From the NCBI GenBank assembly GCA_014730235.1, contig WJIO01000224.1:1-10288 (forward strand): a stretch of DNA of 10,288 nucleotides, given 5' to 3'. Positions 2,522 through 9,923 of the stretch are shown here, in pieces (position 1 is the first letter of the stretch; each line of letters starts with the position of its first letter). The position numbers and the translations under genes were made by a program. This DNA is from Candidatus Poribacteria bacterium. Its GTDB lineage: Bacteria > Poribacteria > DTPJ01 > WJIO01. The notes under the pieces were generated by a model that was not told the DNA's origin, did no database searches, and saw only the letters and a list, made by a program, of their open reading frames with translations.

Positions 2522-2570
2522 ACCGATAGCAAAAAACAATATATTGAATTCCAGGATCAGGAGGTGTATT

Positions 2571-4844
2571 ATGACCACAGAATTGAAAAACAGAATTTCA
2601 TCGGAATGTGTTTCTATTGAAGGTGAATATATCAAATTAATGATTTCTCCCAAAAGTGGTTATTATTGTTTACTTGACAAACAGTCGGATGTGTGGTGGT
2701 ATTCAAATCCATATGAGGATCGTCTGGGAACAGCTTCAGTTATTATAAAAAATGAGGTAAGGGAAATTCCACTGAAGAATTTTGAAGTTGATAAAGGGGA
2801 TGGACATATTAATCTCTTATTCAATGATAGAGAAAATGGTATAAAAATTAAAATAACGTTTGAGATGCTAAAGCATGGTCGGACAGTTGAAATTTCATAT
2901 ACTTCATCCAGAGAGATAAAAGTAAAAAGCATACGTTTGCTTGATGAATCCCTTTGGGTCTCGGATACTGGTAAAGGCTGTGTGCTGGTTCCTGTTCGTC
3001 TTGGGCTTATGATAATGGCTGACAGCGGCAAGGTATTTAATAAAAGATTCCCTACTTTCGGCTATGAGGGTTGTCATATGGAAATGTTAGGGATGGTGAA
3101 TGAGGGATCGGCTGTGCTGGTAACATGGCATGACCCTTATATAACAGCGGAAGTAAACAGCAAATTGCTGGATGAAAATCAAGCAAAGGCTCTGGCAAAA
3201 AAGGAACCGGATACAAAGCAGGTTATTTCAACATCACTAAGTTTGCGTAAAACTGCTGATAGATTCAGGATCAAGTTTTTGGGCGAAGGTGATCACGTTA
3301 CTGTTGGAAAAGCTTACAGTGAAGTTGCCGCCGAAAAAGGTTGGCTGGTAAAATGGGATGAAAAGCTTGAGGAATATCCGGATGGGGAGAAGCTCTTTGG
3401 CGCTATTAATTATAAGTTGTGGAGTGTTCTTTCCCGAAATCTTGATGAAGAAGGTAATGAGAAAAGCGTTAGTGTAAACTGGACTTTCAAGGAAGCTGCT
3501 CAGGTGGCTGAGCACCTTAAGCATGATTTGGAATTGGATAAGGTATTATTTATCATGGGAGGCTGGATACATCGGGGTTATGATAATCAACACCCGGATA
3601 TACTACCAGCGGCACCGGAATGCGGCGGCGATGATGATCTGGCCGAGTGTTCCAGAAGGGTGCAGAAGCTGGGTTATACTTTGAGCTTTCACGATAATTA
3701 CCAGGATATATATACAGATTCACCCTCGTGGGATGAAGATCTGATAATGAAGCGGGAAGATGGTAGCCTGGCCCTGGGTGGATTTTGGGCTGGCGGTAGA
3801 GCTTATCTGACGTGTTCCAGAGAAGCCGTCGGACTGGCGCAACGACCTCAGAACCTGCCAAAGGTAAAAGAGCTTTATAATCCAAACTCTTATTTTATTG
3901 ATACCACATATGCGGCAGGATTATATGAATGTTTTGATCCCAAGCATCCGTTGTCATTATGGGATGATATGATATACAAGAGCGCGATATCCGACTATGC
4001 CCGGGAGTTATTCGGCAACTTCGGATCAGAATGTGGACGGGAATGGGCTATACCTCACGCTGACTTTTTTGAAGGACTTACAGGTGTAAGTGGTAGGTAT
4101 TATCATAATCTGGACGTAGATGAAATTGGCGCGGTGGTTGTGCCTCTGTTTGAAATGGCTTACAGGGATTGTATTGCCATGTATGGAAAATACGGATATG
4201 ATTACTCATCATCAGCGGAATACGTTTTGCATCATATCAGCATTGGCAGGCCTATGCACTATCATAATGTTCCACAACATTTATACTGGAAGAATATGTC
4301 TACTGACGAACTGGATATGCCAGAAGCCGGAAAACCGGATAAGCGTTATTTCTGTCGTGGGCATAATGGCTGGAGTCAGGGGATGTGCTTATTTGACCGT
4401 TATGTCAAAAACACATACGAGGTGTTGTCACCATTAAATGAGATTACATCCCGGATGAAAATAGTAGATTTTCAATTTCTCAAGGATAATCATGAAGTTA
4501 TAAAGACTGTGTTTGAAAATGTTCCAAAAGCCATGTTTGATAGGGATGTCACTGTTGTCGTAAATAAAAGCCATGAACCTTATGAATATGACTCAAGTAT
4601 AGATGGAAAGGTGGTTCTGCCTGCTTATGGCTTTGTGATAGAATGTCCTGAGTTTGTGGCCTTTTATGCTCTGGAATGGGATGGTGTGGTTTATAGACAA
4701 CCTGCCCTGTTTACTATAAGAAGTATGGACGGAGCATCTCTCCCCTGGTCATCAAAAATAAAGGTGTTTCATGGTTTTGGAGATGAGAGGATTAAAATAA
4801 AGGGTGAAATTCATGAGATAAAACGGGAGGAGATAGTTTACTGA
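2571..4844 (+). CDS. Large TIM-barrel glycoside hydrolase-like protein (DUF5696/GH101-like)
   Basis: A 757-residue cytoplasmic-type protein with no signal peptide. I chose ATG 2571 because a full AGGAGGT (2559-2565) lies 5 nt upstream. A TTG nine codons earlier has no ribosome site. Residues 1-260 are beta-rich, like the N-terminal sandwich domain of large glycosidases (GYYCLLDKQSDVWWYSNP near 30-47). The middle looks like a catalytic barrel: FIMGGWIHRGYDNQHPDILP (327-346), GG then DDDLAEC, LSFHDNYQDIY (371-381), YFIDTTYAAG (441-450), and SECGREW (486-492) before PHADFFEG. The C-terminal part (about 620-757) is again beta-rich. By analogy with such barrels, D444 and an acid in the SECGRE segment are candidate catalytic residues; that is inference. 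The family assignment is from memory of the GGW-GYD-P and FIDxxxA patterns. Substrate is unknown, probably an alpha-linked sugar. It lies 118 nt ahead of the lipoprotein gene and may share its transcript. Confidence 0.72.
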   Translation: MTTELKNRISSECVSIEGEYIKLMISPKSGYYCLLDKQSDVWWYSNPYEDRLGTASVIIKNEVREIPLKNFEVDKGDGHINLLFNDRENGIKIKITFEMLKHGRTVEISYTSSREIKVKSIRLLDESLWVSDTGKGCVLVPVRLGLMIMADSGKVFNKRFPTFGYEGCHMEMLGMVNEGSAVLVTWHDPYITAEVNSKLLDENQAKALAKKEPDTKQVISTSLSLRKTADRFRIKFLGEGDHVTVGKAYSEVAAEKGWLVKWDEKLEEYPDGEKLFGAINYKLWSVLSRNLDEEGNEKSVSVNWTFKEAAQVAEHLKHDLELDKVLFIMGGWIHRGYDNQHPDILPAAPECGGDDDLAECSRRVQKLGYTLSFHDNYQDIYTDSPSWDEDLIMKREDGSLALGGFWAGGRAYLTCSREAVGLAQRPQNLPKVKELYNPNSYFIDTTYAAGLYECFDPKHPLSLWDDMIYKSAISDYARELFGNFGSECGREWAIPHADFFEGLTGVSGRYYHNLDVDEIGAVVVPLFEMAYRDCIAMYGKYGYDYSSSAEYVLHHISIGRPMHYHNVPQHLYWKNMSTDELDMPEAGKPDKRYFCRGHNGWSQGMCLFDRYVKNTYEVLSPLNEITSRMKIVDFQFLKDNHEVIKTVFENVPKAMFDRDVTVVVNKSHEPYEYDSSIDGKVVLPAYGFVIECPEFVAFYALEWDGVVYRQPALFTIRSMDGASLPWSSKIKVFHGFGDERIKIKGEIHEIKREEIVY

Positions 4845-4862: not shown

Positions 4863-4920
4863 AATGACGCGGAATGGACGGATTTTCAACGATTATATAG
4901 ATAATTATATCCGCGTCATT
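4863..4920 (+). repeat. Inverted repeat just after the glycosidase-like gene
   Basis: AATGACGCGGA (4863-4873) and TCCGCGTCATT (4910-4920) are perfect 11-bp arms with a 36-nt AT-rich loop that contains a smaller ATTAT/ATAAT hairpin. It begins 18 nt after the stop codon. No U-run follows, so it is a weak terminator candidate at best. It may be an RNA end-protecting stem-loop. The parS site starts 12 nt further on. Confidence 0.55.
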
Positions 4921-4931
4921 TATGATTGTGA

Positions 4932-4947
4932 TGTTTCACGTGAAACA
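4932..4947. promoter_or_regulatory. parS: parS centromere site 1 (ParB-binding)
   Basis: The 16-mer TGTTTCACGTGAAACA is a perfect palindrome, extended by A/T to 18 bp at 4931-4948. It is identical to the widely conserved chromosomal parS consensus recognised by ParB/Spo0J. It lies between genes, ending 3 nt before the Shine-Dalgarno of the BNR lipoprotein. A second identical copy lies at 7734-7749. Two exact copies in 10 kb cannot reasonably be chance. Confidence 0.93.
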
Positions 4948-4962
4948 TTCGGGAGAATTTTC

Positions 4963-5805
4963 ATGAAGTTGATGTTAGTTGGTTTAGTTTGCTTGCTTAT
5001 ATTACAGGTTGGTTGTGCTAATAATGTGCAAATCTCAGAGGTTGAGTTTAATACATTTACAAACGATGGAATTGCCATGTTTGCCCGTGGTTGGGATGCT
5101 GAAGCATTAGGTGTTTACCTTTCTGTTAAACCCCGGGGGTTAAATGAGGATGTGGTATTTCTCATGGGTGCTTTAAAAGTTCCTGGTGCCTCAATACGTT
5201 CTGTATTACTCAGGTCTGGTGATGGTGGAGAAACCTGGGCTGAAGTAATGACAACTGTTACAGGTAGTGATATTATGGATTTATTCTTTTTGGATAAAAA
5301 TACTGGCTGGACTCTGGTTATGGAAACTGTAGAAGGACCCGGAAATCTCTGGATTTACGGAACTGACGATGGTGGTAAAACATGGGAATGGTTATCCAAA
5401 GTACCAAAACGTCACTACTCTGGTCAACCGGTGGATATGGGTTTTATTGATGAAAAGATTGGTCGTCTGGAAATGCTTTATGATGGTGCTTCACCTGCTG
5501 ATGGTTTTGTTATATTGGCAACTTCTGATGGTGGGAGAAGCTGGTCTGAGGTGAGAAGTGTGCCGCTTGAGGAGTATAAAGCCAGTCTGAGGGATGAAGA
5601 TGATTATAAGGAATATGAAAATATTTCAACAAGTAAGAATGGTAGTCAATGGAAACTAGAACGTAGAGAGAATAATTTGCTGGCTCTATTGTGGCGTGAA
5701 GATGAGGGGGATGAATGGGAGTTAAAATCTTTAATACCCTATGAATTCCGCTTTAAAGATGGAATAGTTAAAAAGCCATTTCTGCCTGTTGTTGAAGATA
5801 AATAA
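4963..5805 (+). CDS. Secreted lipoprotein with Asp-box (BNR) repeats
   Basis: I place the start at ATG 4963 (280 residues). GGGAG (4951-4955) lies 7 nt upstream and a signal peptide begins exactly there: MKLMLVGLVCLLILQVGC, with C18 as the probable lipidated cysteine. The box QVGC is imperfect because Leu is at -4 rather than -3. An upstream in-frame ATG at 4864 would have to read through an inverted repeat and the parS site. The mature protein carries clear Asp-boxes, [ST]xDxGxxW, at residues 85-92, 134-141 and 187-194. Degenerate ones lie at 223-230 and 245-252, so a small beta-propeller is likely. Such repeats occur in sialidases and in Ycf48/photosystem II assembly-type proteins. No sialidase catalytic residues are evident, so a binding or scaffold role outside the cytoplasm is more likely than an enzyme. 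It may be co-transcribed with the glycosidase-like gene. Confidence 0.82.
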   Translation: MKLMLVGLVCLLILQVGCANNVQISEVEFNTFTNDGIAMFARGWDAEALGVYLSVKPRGLNEDVVFLMGALKVPGASIRSVLLRSGDGGETWAEVMTTVTGSDIMDLFFLDKNTGWTLVMETVEGPGNLWIYGTDDGGKTWEWLSKVPKRHYSGQPVDMGFIDEKIGRLEMLYDGASPADGFVILATSDGGRSWSEVRSVPLEEYKASLRDEDDYKEYENISTSKNGSQWKLERRENNLLALLWREDEGDEWELKSLIPYEFRFKDGIVKKPFLPVVEDK

Positions 5806-5846
5806 AACACATGGGTTTAACTTTTTAGTTAAACCCATGTGTTTTA
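5803..5846. terminator. Perfect 20-bp stem-loop, probable bidirectional terminator
   Basis: TAAAACACATGGGTTTAACT (5803-5822) and its exact reverse complement (5827-5846) flank a TTTT loop. The outer end of the stem includes the TAA stop of the lipoprotein gene. The arms start with AAAA and end with TTTT, so the hairpin has the A-tract/U-tract look of a terminator on both strands. It sits between convergent genes. The stem is AT-rich with a short GGG/CCC core. Confidence 0.75.
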
Positions 5847-5853
5847 TATTTAT

Positions 5854-5895
5854 GTTTAGTGTGGTTATAATTGAAACTTCTTTACCACACTGAAC
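5854..5895. repeat. Second stem-loop in the convergent spacer
   Basis: GTTTAGTGTGGT (5854-5865) pairs with ACCACACTGAAC (5884-5895) over 12 positions. One pair is G-U on the plus-strand RNA and a mismatch on the minus-strand RNA. It lies just beyond the stop of the CBM9 remnant and may be that gene's old terminator or a second backup for rightward transcription. Confidence 0.5.
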
Positions 5896-5910
5896 CCGAA
5901 AGAGCCATAT

Positions 5911-6417
5911 TTATTTGGTGGCTCCCCATGTGGTTACTGTTGAATCATTGGGATTTACTGATAGATAGTCTATAAGAAATTTAAGTTCACCAAAAACACT
6001 GGGATTACTGTAGCTTAATTCTCCGGCTGCCAGTTCCTTTTCACTCCAGCTTAGTTTATGATCTCTATCACCACCATCGTCGTCGTCATTCATTTGTATA
6101 TTGAAACCGATAACACCCTGGTCTTTTACTTCAACATTAAACATATCCAGGGGGATTGCCATTTCTGTTGCCCATCCATAGTTGGTATTAACAACTGCTG
6201 CTTTTATTCCCAGGGTGTTTGCAGCTATTCCCTGGCCATTTGCACCTTTATAGCCATTGAGAATTGGTTCATCTATTGGACTGTCGATGTTGTAGCGACC
6301 AAGGGTCATCTGGGAGCAGTCGGCTTCATAGACACCGGGTTTGCTATTGTCGCCATCAATGTAGACTTCAATGCTGTCATTCTTCCATACGTTATCGCCG
6401 GTATCCTCGTTAATATG
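5911..6417 (-). pseudogene. 5'-truncated CBM9-like (carbohydrate-binding) domain remnant
   Basis: The minus strand is open for 168 codons, but it begins directly after a TGA (6420-6418) with no start codon or ribosome site. The first homologous residues are already mid-domain: DNVWKNDSIEVYIDGDNS at about codons 8-25. Further family landmarks are YGWATEMAIPLDMF, GVIGFNIQMNDDDDGGDRDH and NPSVFGELKF, the normal C-terminal half of a CBM9-type sugar-binding domain. About 70 residues of the domain, and whatever preceded it, are missing. The internal ATG at 6309 has no Shine-Dalgarno and would begin inside the fold. The lost 5' part is replaced by the intact UroD-like gene, whose stop lies 12 nt away. 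This suggests a deletion or insertion joint near 6418-6429. The reading frame has no internal stop, so the break may be recent. Re-initiation after the UroD stop is possible but unlikely. Confidence 0.75.
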
Positions 6418-6429
6418 TCAAAAAAATTA

Positions 6430-7662
6430 TTAGACATAATTATCGGACACATCTCTAACAATCTTTACCCATTCCCGTAGATTTTCCGGTTTATTCTCCA
6501 CTGTCTGGACATCCTTGAGGGTAATATCTACATGACAACCTTTACAGGCTTCCATGGCATCTTTAATAACTTTGCGGATTAGGCCGGGATCAAAACCACA
6601 GCAAATCATCTGAGAGGGATTTGGTCGGTATGATATTACATAATCCTGACCTATTTGTTCTGCACATTTCCATACATCGGCTGAAGGAGCTACGGCTATA
6701 CGGCGGAGATTTGGGATTTGTCTTAACATGTCAATCTTCTGGGTTAAATCTTCGCAGCAACCATAAGCGATAAGGCCGAATTTACGCATCATAGGCATCT
6801 GATATTGTAGTATAAATTCATCGTGCATATCCGGTGAAACCTGTGCCATTTCCTGAGCTGCCCAATAACCCCATAGTTGATTTCGTTTTACCGGGCCACT
6901 GTTTGCCTTTGGGTCTGAAAGTTCCTTAGCATAGGGCATTGCTTGGTTTTGGTGGTTGCATAACTGCCAATCTCCGGCTTCTTCTGCTTCATCATGGGTG
7001 GTTAAAACACCGTCACTCATAAATCCCACCAGTTTATGCAACCATTCCGGATTATCTACCATGTCCCACATAGCTTGTTCAAGACCTCTCAGATAAGCAA
7101 GATCCGTTGAAATGTCTGCGTGCCACACCTGGTATATAGGAGAACGGTTTACGTTTACTTCCAGAATGTCACCTACTGCATCCTGTAATCTCTGGACGTT
7201 TTTATTTGTCGCCTCTTCATTTATTTTGTGATGAGGTTTAACAAGATTATTTATATCCTCAAGTTTTTTTATAGGTGGGTCAAATTTCCACGCTCCACCC
7301 GGTTCAGTACTGGGAATTCGTCCTATCGGTACACCCCAGGCCCCTTTAGGTGTGCCGATCACACTGGCTCGTTGGGTTATCCAGGGTTCAATAATATAGT
7401 CATCTTCCAATGTGTCCTGAAATATCATCTGGCGCAGAAATCTTTCATGACCGCGATAAAAATTGTCTTCGCATTCTAATTTTGATTCCTTTGCCTCGTT
7501 CCATGCTGCCAACCAACGGACATATATTAGTGGACGAGTTTTTTCCAGACTGTTGTGTCTTCGCCATAAATCTCTTCTTTTGTCCTGAATATCTTTATTT
7601 GCTATGTCGCGATATTGTTTGGCCAATTCTCTAATGATTTGGATGTCTTTTTTATTTTCCAT
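6430..7662 (-). CDS. UroD/MtaA-like methyltransferase-family protein
   Basis: A 410-residue protein of the uroporphyrinogen decarboxylase-like superfamily (PF01208 type). That fold also includes the corrinoid:coenzyme M methyltransferases MtaA and CmuA. Landmarks: TRPLIYVRWLAAWNE near 38-52, DISTDLAYLRGLEQAMWDMVDNPEWL in the middle, YGCCEDLTQKIDMLRQIPNLR, SYRPNP, then HVDITLKDVQTVENKPENL near the C-terminus. The CC after YG lies where methyltransferase members carry metal-binding His/Cys. This divergent branch is common in genomes rich in carbohydrate and methyl metabolism. It is not the haem-pathway HemE, and no haem gene is nearby. I chose ATG 7662 because GGAG lies 7 nt upstream. A GTG at 7698 would add 12 residues (MPIFIIFIWRLK) encoded inside a terminator-like hairpin. 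It ends 12 nt before the truncated CBM9 frame. Substrate unknown. Confidence 0.85.
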   Translation of the reverse strand: MENKKDIQIIRELAKQYRDIANKDIQDKRRDLWRRHNSLEKTRPLIYVRWLAAWNEAKESKLECEDNFYRGHERFLRQMIFQDTLEDDYIIEPWITQRASVIGTPKGAWGVPIGRIPSTEPGGAWKFDPPIKKLEDINNLVKPHHKINEEATNKNVQRLQDAVGDILEVNVNRSPIYQVWHADISTDLAYLRGLEQAMWDMVDNPEWLHKLVGFMSDGVLTTHDEAEEAGDWQLCNHQNQAMPYAKELSDPKANSGPVKRNQLWGYWAAQEMAQVSPDMHDEFILQYQMPMMRKFGLIAYGCCEDLTQKIDMLRQIPNLRRIAVAPSADVWKCAEQIGQDYVISYRPNPSQMICCGFDPGLIRKVIKDAMEACKGCHVDITLKDVQTVENKPENLREWVKIVRDVSDNYV

Positions 7663-7702
7663 TTTTAGTCTCCAGATGAAGATAATAAAAATGGGCACGC
7701 AT
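7652..7702 (-). CDS. Possible 16-residue leader peptide overlapping the UroD-like start
   Basis: A strong AGGAGG (7717-7712) stands 9 nt before ATG 7702. The frame encodes MRAHFYYLHLETKNGK and stops at TAA 7654-7652, overlapping the start of the UroD-like gene by 11 nt. That arrangement would allow translational coupling. The ATG lies in the loop of the terminator-like hairpin. Without it, the strong Shine-Dalgarno serves no obvious gene. The evidence is only the ribosome site and overlap; it may be coincidental. Confidence 0.3.
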   Translation of the reverse strand: MRAHFYYLHLETKNGK

Positions 7703-7712
7703 AAGCGTACCC
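7682..7712 (-). terminator. Rho-independent terminator or attenuator between PCMT and UroD-like genes
   Basis: On the minus strand GGGTACGC (7712-7705), loop TTAT and GCGTGCCC (7700-7693) form an 8-bp GC-rich stem with one G-U pair. ATTTTTATTAT follows. This is a good intrinsic terminator shape, 42 nt after the PCMT stop and only about 20 nt before the UroD-like start codon. It would end PCMT transcripts or attenuate transcription into the UroD-like gene. Confidence 0.65.
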
Positions 7713-7723
7713 CTCCTGCTTTT

Positions 7724-7729
7724 ATTATA
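7724..7729 (-). promoter_or_regulatory. -10-like TATAAT upstream of the UroD-like gene, next to parS
   Basis: The minus strand reads TATAAT at 7729-7724. The matching -35 position (about 7747-7752) is AAATGT, which is poor. If this is a promoter, the spacer and -35 are covered by parS site 2, and RNA would start just before the AGGAGG at 7717. The region is AT-rich, so a chance match is possible. Confidence 0.3.
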
Positions 7730-7733
7730 TTAT

Positions 7734-7749
7734 TGTTTCACGTGAAACA
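7734..7749. promoter_or_regulatory. parS: parS centromere site 2 (ParB-binding)
   Basis: This is a second exact TGTTTCACGTGAAACA, identical to site 1 and centred 2802 bp from it. It is in the short spacer between the PCMT stop (7754) and the leader of the UroD-like gene. Conservation of all 16 bases in two otherwise unrelated spacers argues for functional ParB loading sites. Confidence 0.93.
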
Positions 7750-7753
7750 TTTG

Positions 7754-8521
7754 CTATTTACCTTTTTCCTGCGCTTCTCCGGTCATTGGCACAAAGCGCA
7801 CCGGGAGGACATTTTCCTCCTTGATGCCTTCTTTTGTTTTTACTAACAGCTTAAGCTCTTGAAACCTTTCCCCTACAGGTATTACCAGCCTGCCGCCTTC
7901 TTTTAGTTGATCTACCAATGGTTGTGGGACGTGGTCTGGTGCTGCCGTTACTATTACCGCGTCAAATGGTGCATATTCGGGCCAGCCTTTGTATCCGTCT
8001 CCCGATTTGACTTTTATGTTCTCGTATCCCATTTCCATCAAAAGCTTTTCTGCCTTTTTTGCCAGTGCGTCTATTATTTCAATAGTATATACTTCCTCTG
8101 CAATTTCAGCCAGAACTGCTGCCTGGTATCCTGAGCCTGTTCCGATTTCCAGTACTTTTTCACCGCCCTTTAAATTAATCAATTCTGTCATTAGTGCTAC
8201 AATGTAAGGTTGTGAAATAGTCTGGTTTTCGTCTATAGGTAATGCTGTGTCTTCGTAAGCTTGGGATTCATATTTGTCCAGCACAAATTTATGACGGGGA
8301 ACTTTTTTCATCGCTTCCAATACCAGTTTATCTTCCACGCCACGTCTTATTATCTGGTTTTTTACCATTAATTCTCGTTCTTCTGTATATTGTGTTAATT
8401 CTGTTGGGGATTTTTCTGTGGTTCTTGATTCTTTTTGAATCTCACTTTTTTGTTTTTTGTTTTCTGCACATGATATTGTGATAAAGATTAAAAATACCAG
8501 CATTATTGATAGTATCTTCAT
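7754..8521 (-). CDS. pcm: Lipoprotein-type protein-L-isoaspartate O-methyltransferase
   Basis: A 255-residue protein with an N-terminal export signal fused to a complete PCMT domain (PF01135). The enzyme uses S-adenosylmethionine to methylate L-isoaspartyl residues in damaged proteins. MKILSIMLVFLIFITISC is a signal peptide with C18 as candidate lipidation site (TISC, without the usual Leu at -3). A charged linker follows (about 19-48). The domain begins at REL.MVKNQIIRRGVED (49-63). LPIDENQTISQPYIVALMTE (94-113) is the conserved substrate-loop segment. VLEIGTGSGYQAAVLAE (123-139) is SAM-binding motif I, and FDAVIVTAAPDHVPQPLVDQ (186-205) follows. VLPVRFVPMTG closes the fold as usual. The start is ATG 8521, 7 nt after a GGAGGGG. 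Most characterised Pcm enzymes are cytoplasmic, so the export signal is the odd point. The gene follows the DUF4159 gene by 61 nt across a hairpin. Confidence 0.9.
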   Translation of the reverse strand: MKILSIMLVFLIFITISCAENKKQKSEIQKESRTTEKSPTELTQYTEERELMVKNQIIRRGVEDKLVLEAMKKVPRHKFVLDKYESQAYEDTALPIDENQTISQPYIVALMTELINLKGGEKVLEIGTGSGYQAAVLAEIAEEVYTIEIIDALAKKAEKLLMEMGYENIKVKSGDGYKGWPEYAPFDAVIVTAAPDHVPQPLVDQLKEGGRLVIPVGERFQELKLLVKTKEGIKEENVLPVRFVPMTGEAQEKGK

Positions 8522-8582: not shown

Positions 8583-9923
8583 TTAGTTATAATCTGAACG
8601 GTCGGTAATACCTCCGCGTTTCATTGCGTATACCAATAAATTAGTCATAAATTTGTATACATCCGGGGAGTATCTGTAACGTAGCTGTGTATGACTTGGA
8701 ATTTCCACTGTTTCTATGGCGCATAAATAATCTTTTCGGCTGAATACTACAGCCAGTCGTCTGCCTATTGTTATACCCTGTAGATAGGGGAATATAGCGC
8801 CTTTACCTTCGTTTTCTGAACCCCAGAACATCTCACTTCCCCTTGGTGGGCCAGGAAGGTTATAATAACAATTAAATAATTCATGGGTTCTGGGTATTCT
8901 TTCTATGTTATATTCAGGTAATACCTCTCTCAGGATAGATTTTACTTCGTCGGCAAATAATCCGTGGAAACCGCAGTCATCAAAAAACAACATACCACCT
9001 CTGTCAACCAGGTATTCCCGAAGACCTGCTTTTTCTTCTTGTGTTAAGGCCTTATCCAGTTCGCCACCGTTTCTTTCTGGACGCATGAGGTTTCTGGATT
9101 TCGTTTCACTCCTGTCGTGACCGGTCATGATAATTACTGGTGCATCCAGAATTTTTGGGTCATCCAGGGATAATACTCCTCCAGCTACTTTCATGTCAGC
9201 TTTGATCCTTGTGTTCTTGTTTAGCCAGTCTACCAGACCTGTGAGGGCTGTGGGATCTTGCCACCAATCGGACAGACCGTGTTTAACTCTTATAAGTCTT
9301 ATATGTCCGGAAATATCGCTACCTTGACCTATAAGAACTCCGCCGATTTCGTCTTTTGGTAATGATGTTGGGGACTTCAGGTTTTCCAGAGCCACACCGG
9401 CATCAGCTGCCATGCTTGGATTTATTATGGATAATCCCCGGCTTTTGCCTTTGCCTCCTGCCCTGGTTACTCCTGTTACTGCTCCTCTACCTACTTGTGC
9501 TCCTTTTGCTGTGGTTACAGGGCCTGCAAAAGCCATATCATCGGAGTTTGGTATTTCTGCTGATGTTGTTACCGATGGTAGTATTTTGCTTGTAACCGCA
9601 TCCGGATTTAACTCGACACTTTTTCTTACAATATTTGGTGCTGGTTTTACAACTTGAGCAATATCTGATGATTGTAAATCCCTCGTTTGCTTGGATTTTG
9701 GTCCTGTATCCCGGTCTGTTGCTTTTCTTTTTACAAGTGGTTCTTTGATTAATGGTTTTTCAATTTTAATTTCTGGTGATGGAACTTCCACCCAGGTAAC
9801 ACCTATAGATTCCTGAGGTGGCTCACTTACAACTATGTATGATGCGAAAAATATGACTAATGCTACGTGTATAGCAGCGGAGATAAGAAATGAATCAAGA
9901 CTTCTGCTGCGTTCTTTCCGCAA
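8583..9923 (-). CDS. Membrane-anchored DUF4159 protein with TonB-like N-terminus
   Basis: A 446-residue protein. Residues 1-10 are basic and 11-33 form one membrane helix (SFLISAAIHVALVIFFASYIVV), the layout of TonB-type anchors with the His of AAIHV inside the helix. Residues 35-120 are rich in Pro, Lys and Glu and should be an extended periplasmic linker. A Gly-rich stretch (about 140-165) follows. Residues 207-440 match DUF4159, a glutamine-amidotransferase-like fold: SDWWQDPTALTGLVDWLN, APVIIMTGHD, LREYLVDRGGMLFFDDCG, then LREVLPEYNIERIPRTHELF. The start is TTG 9923: AGGAGGT (9938-9932) is 8 nt upstream and an in-frame TAG lies two codons before the TTG, so no longer form exists. The gene lies 35 nt after the glsB-like gene. 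Function is unknown; DUF4159 proteins often accompany other envelope proteins. No catalytic Cys-His-Glu triad can be assigned with confidence. Confidence 0.83.
   Translation of the reverse strand: MRKERSRSLDSFLISAAIHVALVIFFASYIVVSEPPQESIGVTWVEVPSPEIKIEKPLIKEPLVKRKATDRDTGPKSKQTRDLQSSDIAQVVKPAPNIVRKSVELNPDAVTSKILPSVTTSAEIPNSDDMAFAGPVTTAKGAQVGRGAVTGVTRAGGKGKSRGLSIINPSMAADAGVALENLKSPTSLPKDEIGGVLIGQGSDISGHIRLIRVKHGLSDWWQDPTALTGLVDWLNKNTRIKADMKVAGGVLSLDDPKILDAPVIIMTGHDRSETKSRNLMRPERNGGELDKALTQEEKAGLREYLVDRGGMLFFDDCGFHGLFADEVKSILREVLPEYNIERIPRTHELFNCYYNLPGPPRGSEMFWGSENEGKGAIFPYLQGITIGRRLAVVFSRKDYLCAIETVEIPSHTQLRYRYSPDVYKFMTNLLVYAMKRGGITDRSDYN

Follow-up and report, generated by a model that had tools for sequence, protein, structure and literature searches.

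Two perfect 16-bp palindromes on a Poribacteria contig as probable chromosomal parS sites of a ParABS system

By its family, ParB is a clamp dependent on cytidine triphosphate (CTP), and the chromosomal parS site of the ParABS systems described in Caulobacter vibrioides and Bacillus subtilis has the consensus TGTTNCACGTGAAACA. As a rule, the majority of parS sites are found within the ori domain; for B. subtilis, 10 sites are listed, and 8 of them are located there (PMC7022226). Specificity for parS is separated from specificity for NBS, the Noc-binding site, by four positions (R173, T179, A184, and G201 in Caulobacter numbering); R173 and G201 are reported to be absolutely conserved in ParB orthologues, while Noc has Q, K, K, and R (PMC7383237). 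The present analysis concerns two copies of a parS-like palindrome, TGTTTCACGTGAAACA, in a stretch of 10,288 nucleotides (hereafter, the window) that is the whole contig WJIO01000224.1 (C152) of a Candidatus Poribacteria bacterium. The source genome (GCA_014730235.1) comprises 5.53 Mb in 451 contigs, with an estimated completeness of 91.6% and contamination of 4.8%.

The palindrome is perfect, being identical to its own reverse complement, and both copies match the 16-bp parS consensus exactly. As stated in the first-pass annotation of the window, the 16-mer occurs there exactly twice, at positions 4932–4947 (site 1) and 7734–7749 (site 2), with a distance of 2.8 kb between the copies. No further similar sequences were found in the window when up to three mismatches were allowed, and shuffled sequences yielded 0.04 such matches. 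A first-order model predicts 2.8e-6 chance occurrences of the exact 16-mer per 10.3 kb, which agrees with the few in a million given in the annotation, and 0.0015–0.002 per genome of 5.53 Mb. The annotation had also proposed to check whether the 16-mer is scattered over the chromosome. A search of the whole genome confined the exact sequence to the two window sites and detected no matches with one mismatch, so that the genomic copies are few and clustered. Two sequences with two mismatches, on contigs C267 and C297, were considered as additional parS sites and rejected, since they are scattered and their number is close to that expected by chance (2 versus ~2.2). The flanks outside the two palindromes are unrelated to each other and, therefore, the copies do not belong to a duplicated segment.

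No parAB, dnaA, or gidAB genes are located within the window, in accordance with the first-pass annotation. The parAB genes and a ParB with a matching recognition region, both of which it had suggested looking for, were identified on another contig of the same genome (C333, 4.3 kb). This contig begins with the 3' end of gidB, which was identified by similarity to the corresponding part of gidB in the related genome described below; parA (L014, positions 177–944) and parB (937–1803) follow; the gene of the ParA ATPase thus adjoins that of ParB in a gidB neighbourhood. The encoded protein is the one chromosomal-type ParB of the genome (216 bits to TIGR00180) and has Spo0J/ParB as its best PDB matches; a second ParB-like match, on contig C236, is weak. 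At the positions corresponding to R173, T179, A184, and G201 of the Caulobacter protein, ParB of the source genome contains R, I, Q, and G, so that both parS-type recognition residues, R173 and G201, are present. The register of these residues was fixed by the Caulobacter R-T-A-G motif at its expected spacing, the alignment numbers being 10 below the published ones. In addition, the GERR and EN.QR motifs, which are typical of the CTP-binding domain of ParB, are intact. The source genome also encodes SMC. Directly after parAB, both genomes of the order carry STAS-domain-like and anti-sigma-kinase-like genes (L014:2049–2883 and L022:2229–3037), named by sequence motifs only.

The comparison set consisted of 84 Poribacteria genomes, namely, the two of the window's order and 82 others. 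The sole other genome of the order in this set is the metagenome-assembled genome SpSt-970 (G001), which belongs to a different family and is 88% complete. It has the same gidB-parA-parB gene order, and its ParB is 70% identical to that of the source genome, with the same R, I, Q, and G. A single near-perfect parS, TGTTTCATGTGAAACA, was found in this genome (15 of 16 bases; L015:3509–3524, contig C194, DTPJ01000218.1). It is located 23 bp beyond the stop codon of the orthologue of pcm, the gene next to site 2 in the window, and the same DUF4159 gene precedes pcm. The gene across the site from pcm differs from that in the window and is unrelated to it. The intergenic DNA around the G001 site aligns poorly, yet 15 of the 16 site bases are retained. 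On this comparison, the pcm-side site of G001 is a phylogenetic footprint for site 2. Since the site has been kept beside pcm while the opposite gene differs, its position supports parS and speaks against an operator of a neighbouring gene. In the one relative available, which retains ParB, conservation of parS was observed for site 2 only.

Among the 84 genomes, the exact 16-mer is present in the source genome only. Sites with one mismatch in six other Poribacteria were rejected as parS, because their number was 9 versus 6 for a reversed control pattern and these genomes lack a chromosomal ParB. ParB scoring above 200 bits is encoded only by the two genomes of the order; no chromosomal-type ParB was found in the other 82, where the best match reached 74 bits. 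Such weak ParB-like matches (up to 74 bits) were not counted, and those that were aligned do not have the parS-type recognition region. Several of the genomes lacking ParB (G010, G019, G035, G045, and G047) are single-contig assemblies and, therefore, fragmentation is not the reason for its absence. SMC, in turn, was detected above the cut-off in 79 of the 84 genomes. The vicinity of DUF4159 at 79 further Poribacteria loci yielded no pcm, for which reason the position of parS is not comparable at these loci. Across the whole set, parS and its ParB co-occur; only two genomes of a single order underlie this pattern, which therefore counts as one evolutionary contrast rather than many. It seems somewhat more probable than the opposite that chromosomal ParABS is restricted to a single order within the Poribacteria and that the rest of the phylum segregates its 4–7 Mb chromosomes with SMC but without chromosomal ParB or canonical parS, owing to a phylum-wide loss or to a late gain in one order. 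No report of such a restriction was found in the partial library of literature that was searched. If most Poribacteria lack ParABS and have SMC, they would represent a natural case for studying SMC loading and the segregation of large chromosomes without ParABS; this apparent restriction to one order is the part worth following.

The canonical 16-mer unique to the window, the parS-type ParB, ParA, SMC, the syntenic site in G001, and the co-occurrence of site and ParB together are the reasons why the two palindromes are considered, with high confidence, to be chromosomal parS of a standard ParABS system. The identification of the 16-mer with the conserved chromosomal ParB-binding site, made in the first-pass annotation, is thereby supported by the parS-type ParB and the syntenic G001 site in particular. 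The sites appear genuine and ordinary, representing a known kind of element. The ParB of this genome is predicted to bind both sites, to spread from them, and to load SMC. The ParB clamp, encoded after ParA on C333, would load at the two parS sites and slide over the neighbouring kilobases; the ParB-loaded region would offer ParA and SMC a hold on that part of the chromosome, which, by analogy with other bacteria, is usually origin-proximal. The sites may serve as a probable handle on the origin region of an uncultured Poribacterium.

The contig likely lies near the replication origin oriC, as proposed in the first-pass annotation, because most parS sites elsewhere are located in the ori domain (PMC7022226). 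Several observations weigh against this position or against the assignment as a whole. The number of copies is just two, though ~8% of the genome may be absent from the assembly, and no counterpart of site 1 was found in the 88% complete G001. The dnaA gene is located on C290, parAB on C333, and the sites on C152, with no contig joining them, and the ends of the window contig overlap no other contig of the assembly. No parS-like site, even with up to four mismatches, was found on the parAB contig, and the same search of the dnaA stretch that was read found none. Local GC skew was rejected as a sign of oriC, since it merely tracks gene strand. This lack of linkage to oriC genes is also what could be expected of a genuine parS lying outside the ori region, on the terminus side or as a secondary site, and a minority of parS sites elsewhere do lie outside the ori domain, as in B. 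subtilis (PMC7022226). Such a location, a sub-case of the parS assignment rather than an exclusive alternative to it, is regarded as unlikely.

The palindrome could instead be the operator of a local transcription factor controlling the adjacent genes, namely, the lipoprotein gene and the gene at 6430–7662, given that each site is followed, within 90 bp, by the likely start of a gene. The intergenic sites parS3 and parS4 of Pseudomonas aeruginosa repress downstream genes via ParB (PMC7022226), and a side effect of parS on expression of the lipoprotein gene is, by analogy, possible. However, the palindrome coincides in every base with the canonical parS 16-mer, the genome contains a gene for a parS-type ParB, and the gene downstream of the conserved G001 site is unrelated. 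In addition, the orthologue of the 6430–7662 gene in G001 (58% identical, contig C103) has no parS-like site nearby, even at four mismatches. A dedicated operator is, accordingly, very improbable. Even less credence can be given to chance or to an assembly artefact, such as a repeat or a contaminating contig with the parS of another organism. The contamination estimate of the genome leaves some room for the latter, but at this locus the window proteins share 65% identity with those of G001, much as ParB does (70%), and the contig therefore belongs to the same lineage. Chance is opposed by the 0.002 exact copies expected per genome, and duplication by the unrelated flanks.

Site 1, which has no strand and lies at the centre of an 18-bp palindrome (4931–4948), is located between a DUF5696/DUF6259-like gene (2544–4844) and a plus-strand gene of a lipoprotein with BNR/YCF48-like repeats (4963–5805), which has no evident link with partitioning. 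The likely start of the latter is the ATG at 4963 (MKLMLVGLVCLLILQVGC...), preceded by GGGAG and lying 15 bp downstream of the site. The mechanically longest open reading frame of this gene, from the ATG at 4864, would cross site 1 and read VSRET there; the statement of the first-pass annotation that both sites are intergenic is borne out if the lipoprotein starts at 4963. Site 2, likewise without strand, is located 4 bp beyond the stop codon of pcm and 71 bp upstream of the start (7662) of the next minus-strand gene, and its position 3' of pcm is the one kept in the second family of the order. The minus-strand pcm-like gene (7754–8521) encodes a protein-L-isoaspartate O-methyltransferase whose N terminus is of the lipoprotein type, and it is syntenic in G001 with parS and the DUF4159 gene; the latter (8583–9923, minus strand), located upstream of pcm, is a conserved neighbour and served as a synteny marker. 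The minus-strand gene at 6430–7662 belongs to an unnamed family without matches in Pfam, NCBIfam, or the PDB. The product of this gene is 410 aa long and has several paralogues in the source genome and G001. An open frame on the minus strand at 5911–6432 contains a remnant of a CBM9-type domain and has no plausible start. Stop codons and the end of the gene before it lie immediately ahead of this frame, which is probably a truncated gene. Between two convergent genes, a long near-perfect inverted repeat at 5803–5848 (AAAACACATGGGTTTAAC...GTTAAACCCATGTGTTTT) looks like a two-way terminator.

As for the known systems, Noc/NBS resembles the Poribacterium system in having a related palindrome and a related protein family, and the Poribacterium ParB also matches the Noc model, although below the cut-off (262 versus 315 bits). 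Identity with Noc/NBS was rejected, since the site has the sequence of parS and not of NBS and the protein contains R-I-Q-G in place of the Q-K-K-R of Noc. Compared with the chromosomal ParABS systems, only two copies were found in the Poribacterium, which are off the parAB contig, and within the Poribacteria the system was detected in one order only. At the same time, it shares with the chromosomal ParABS systems the few clustered copies, chromosomal-type ParA and ParB encoded after gidB, and the parS-type residues of ParB, and its 16-mer is identical to the consensus of the C. vibrioides and B. subtilis sites.
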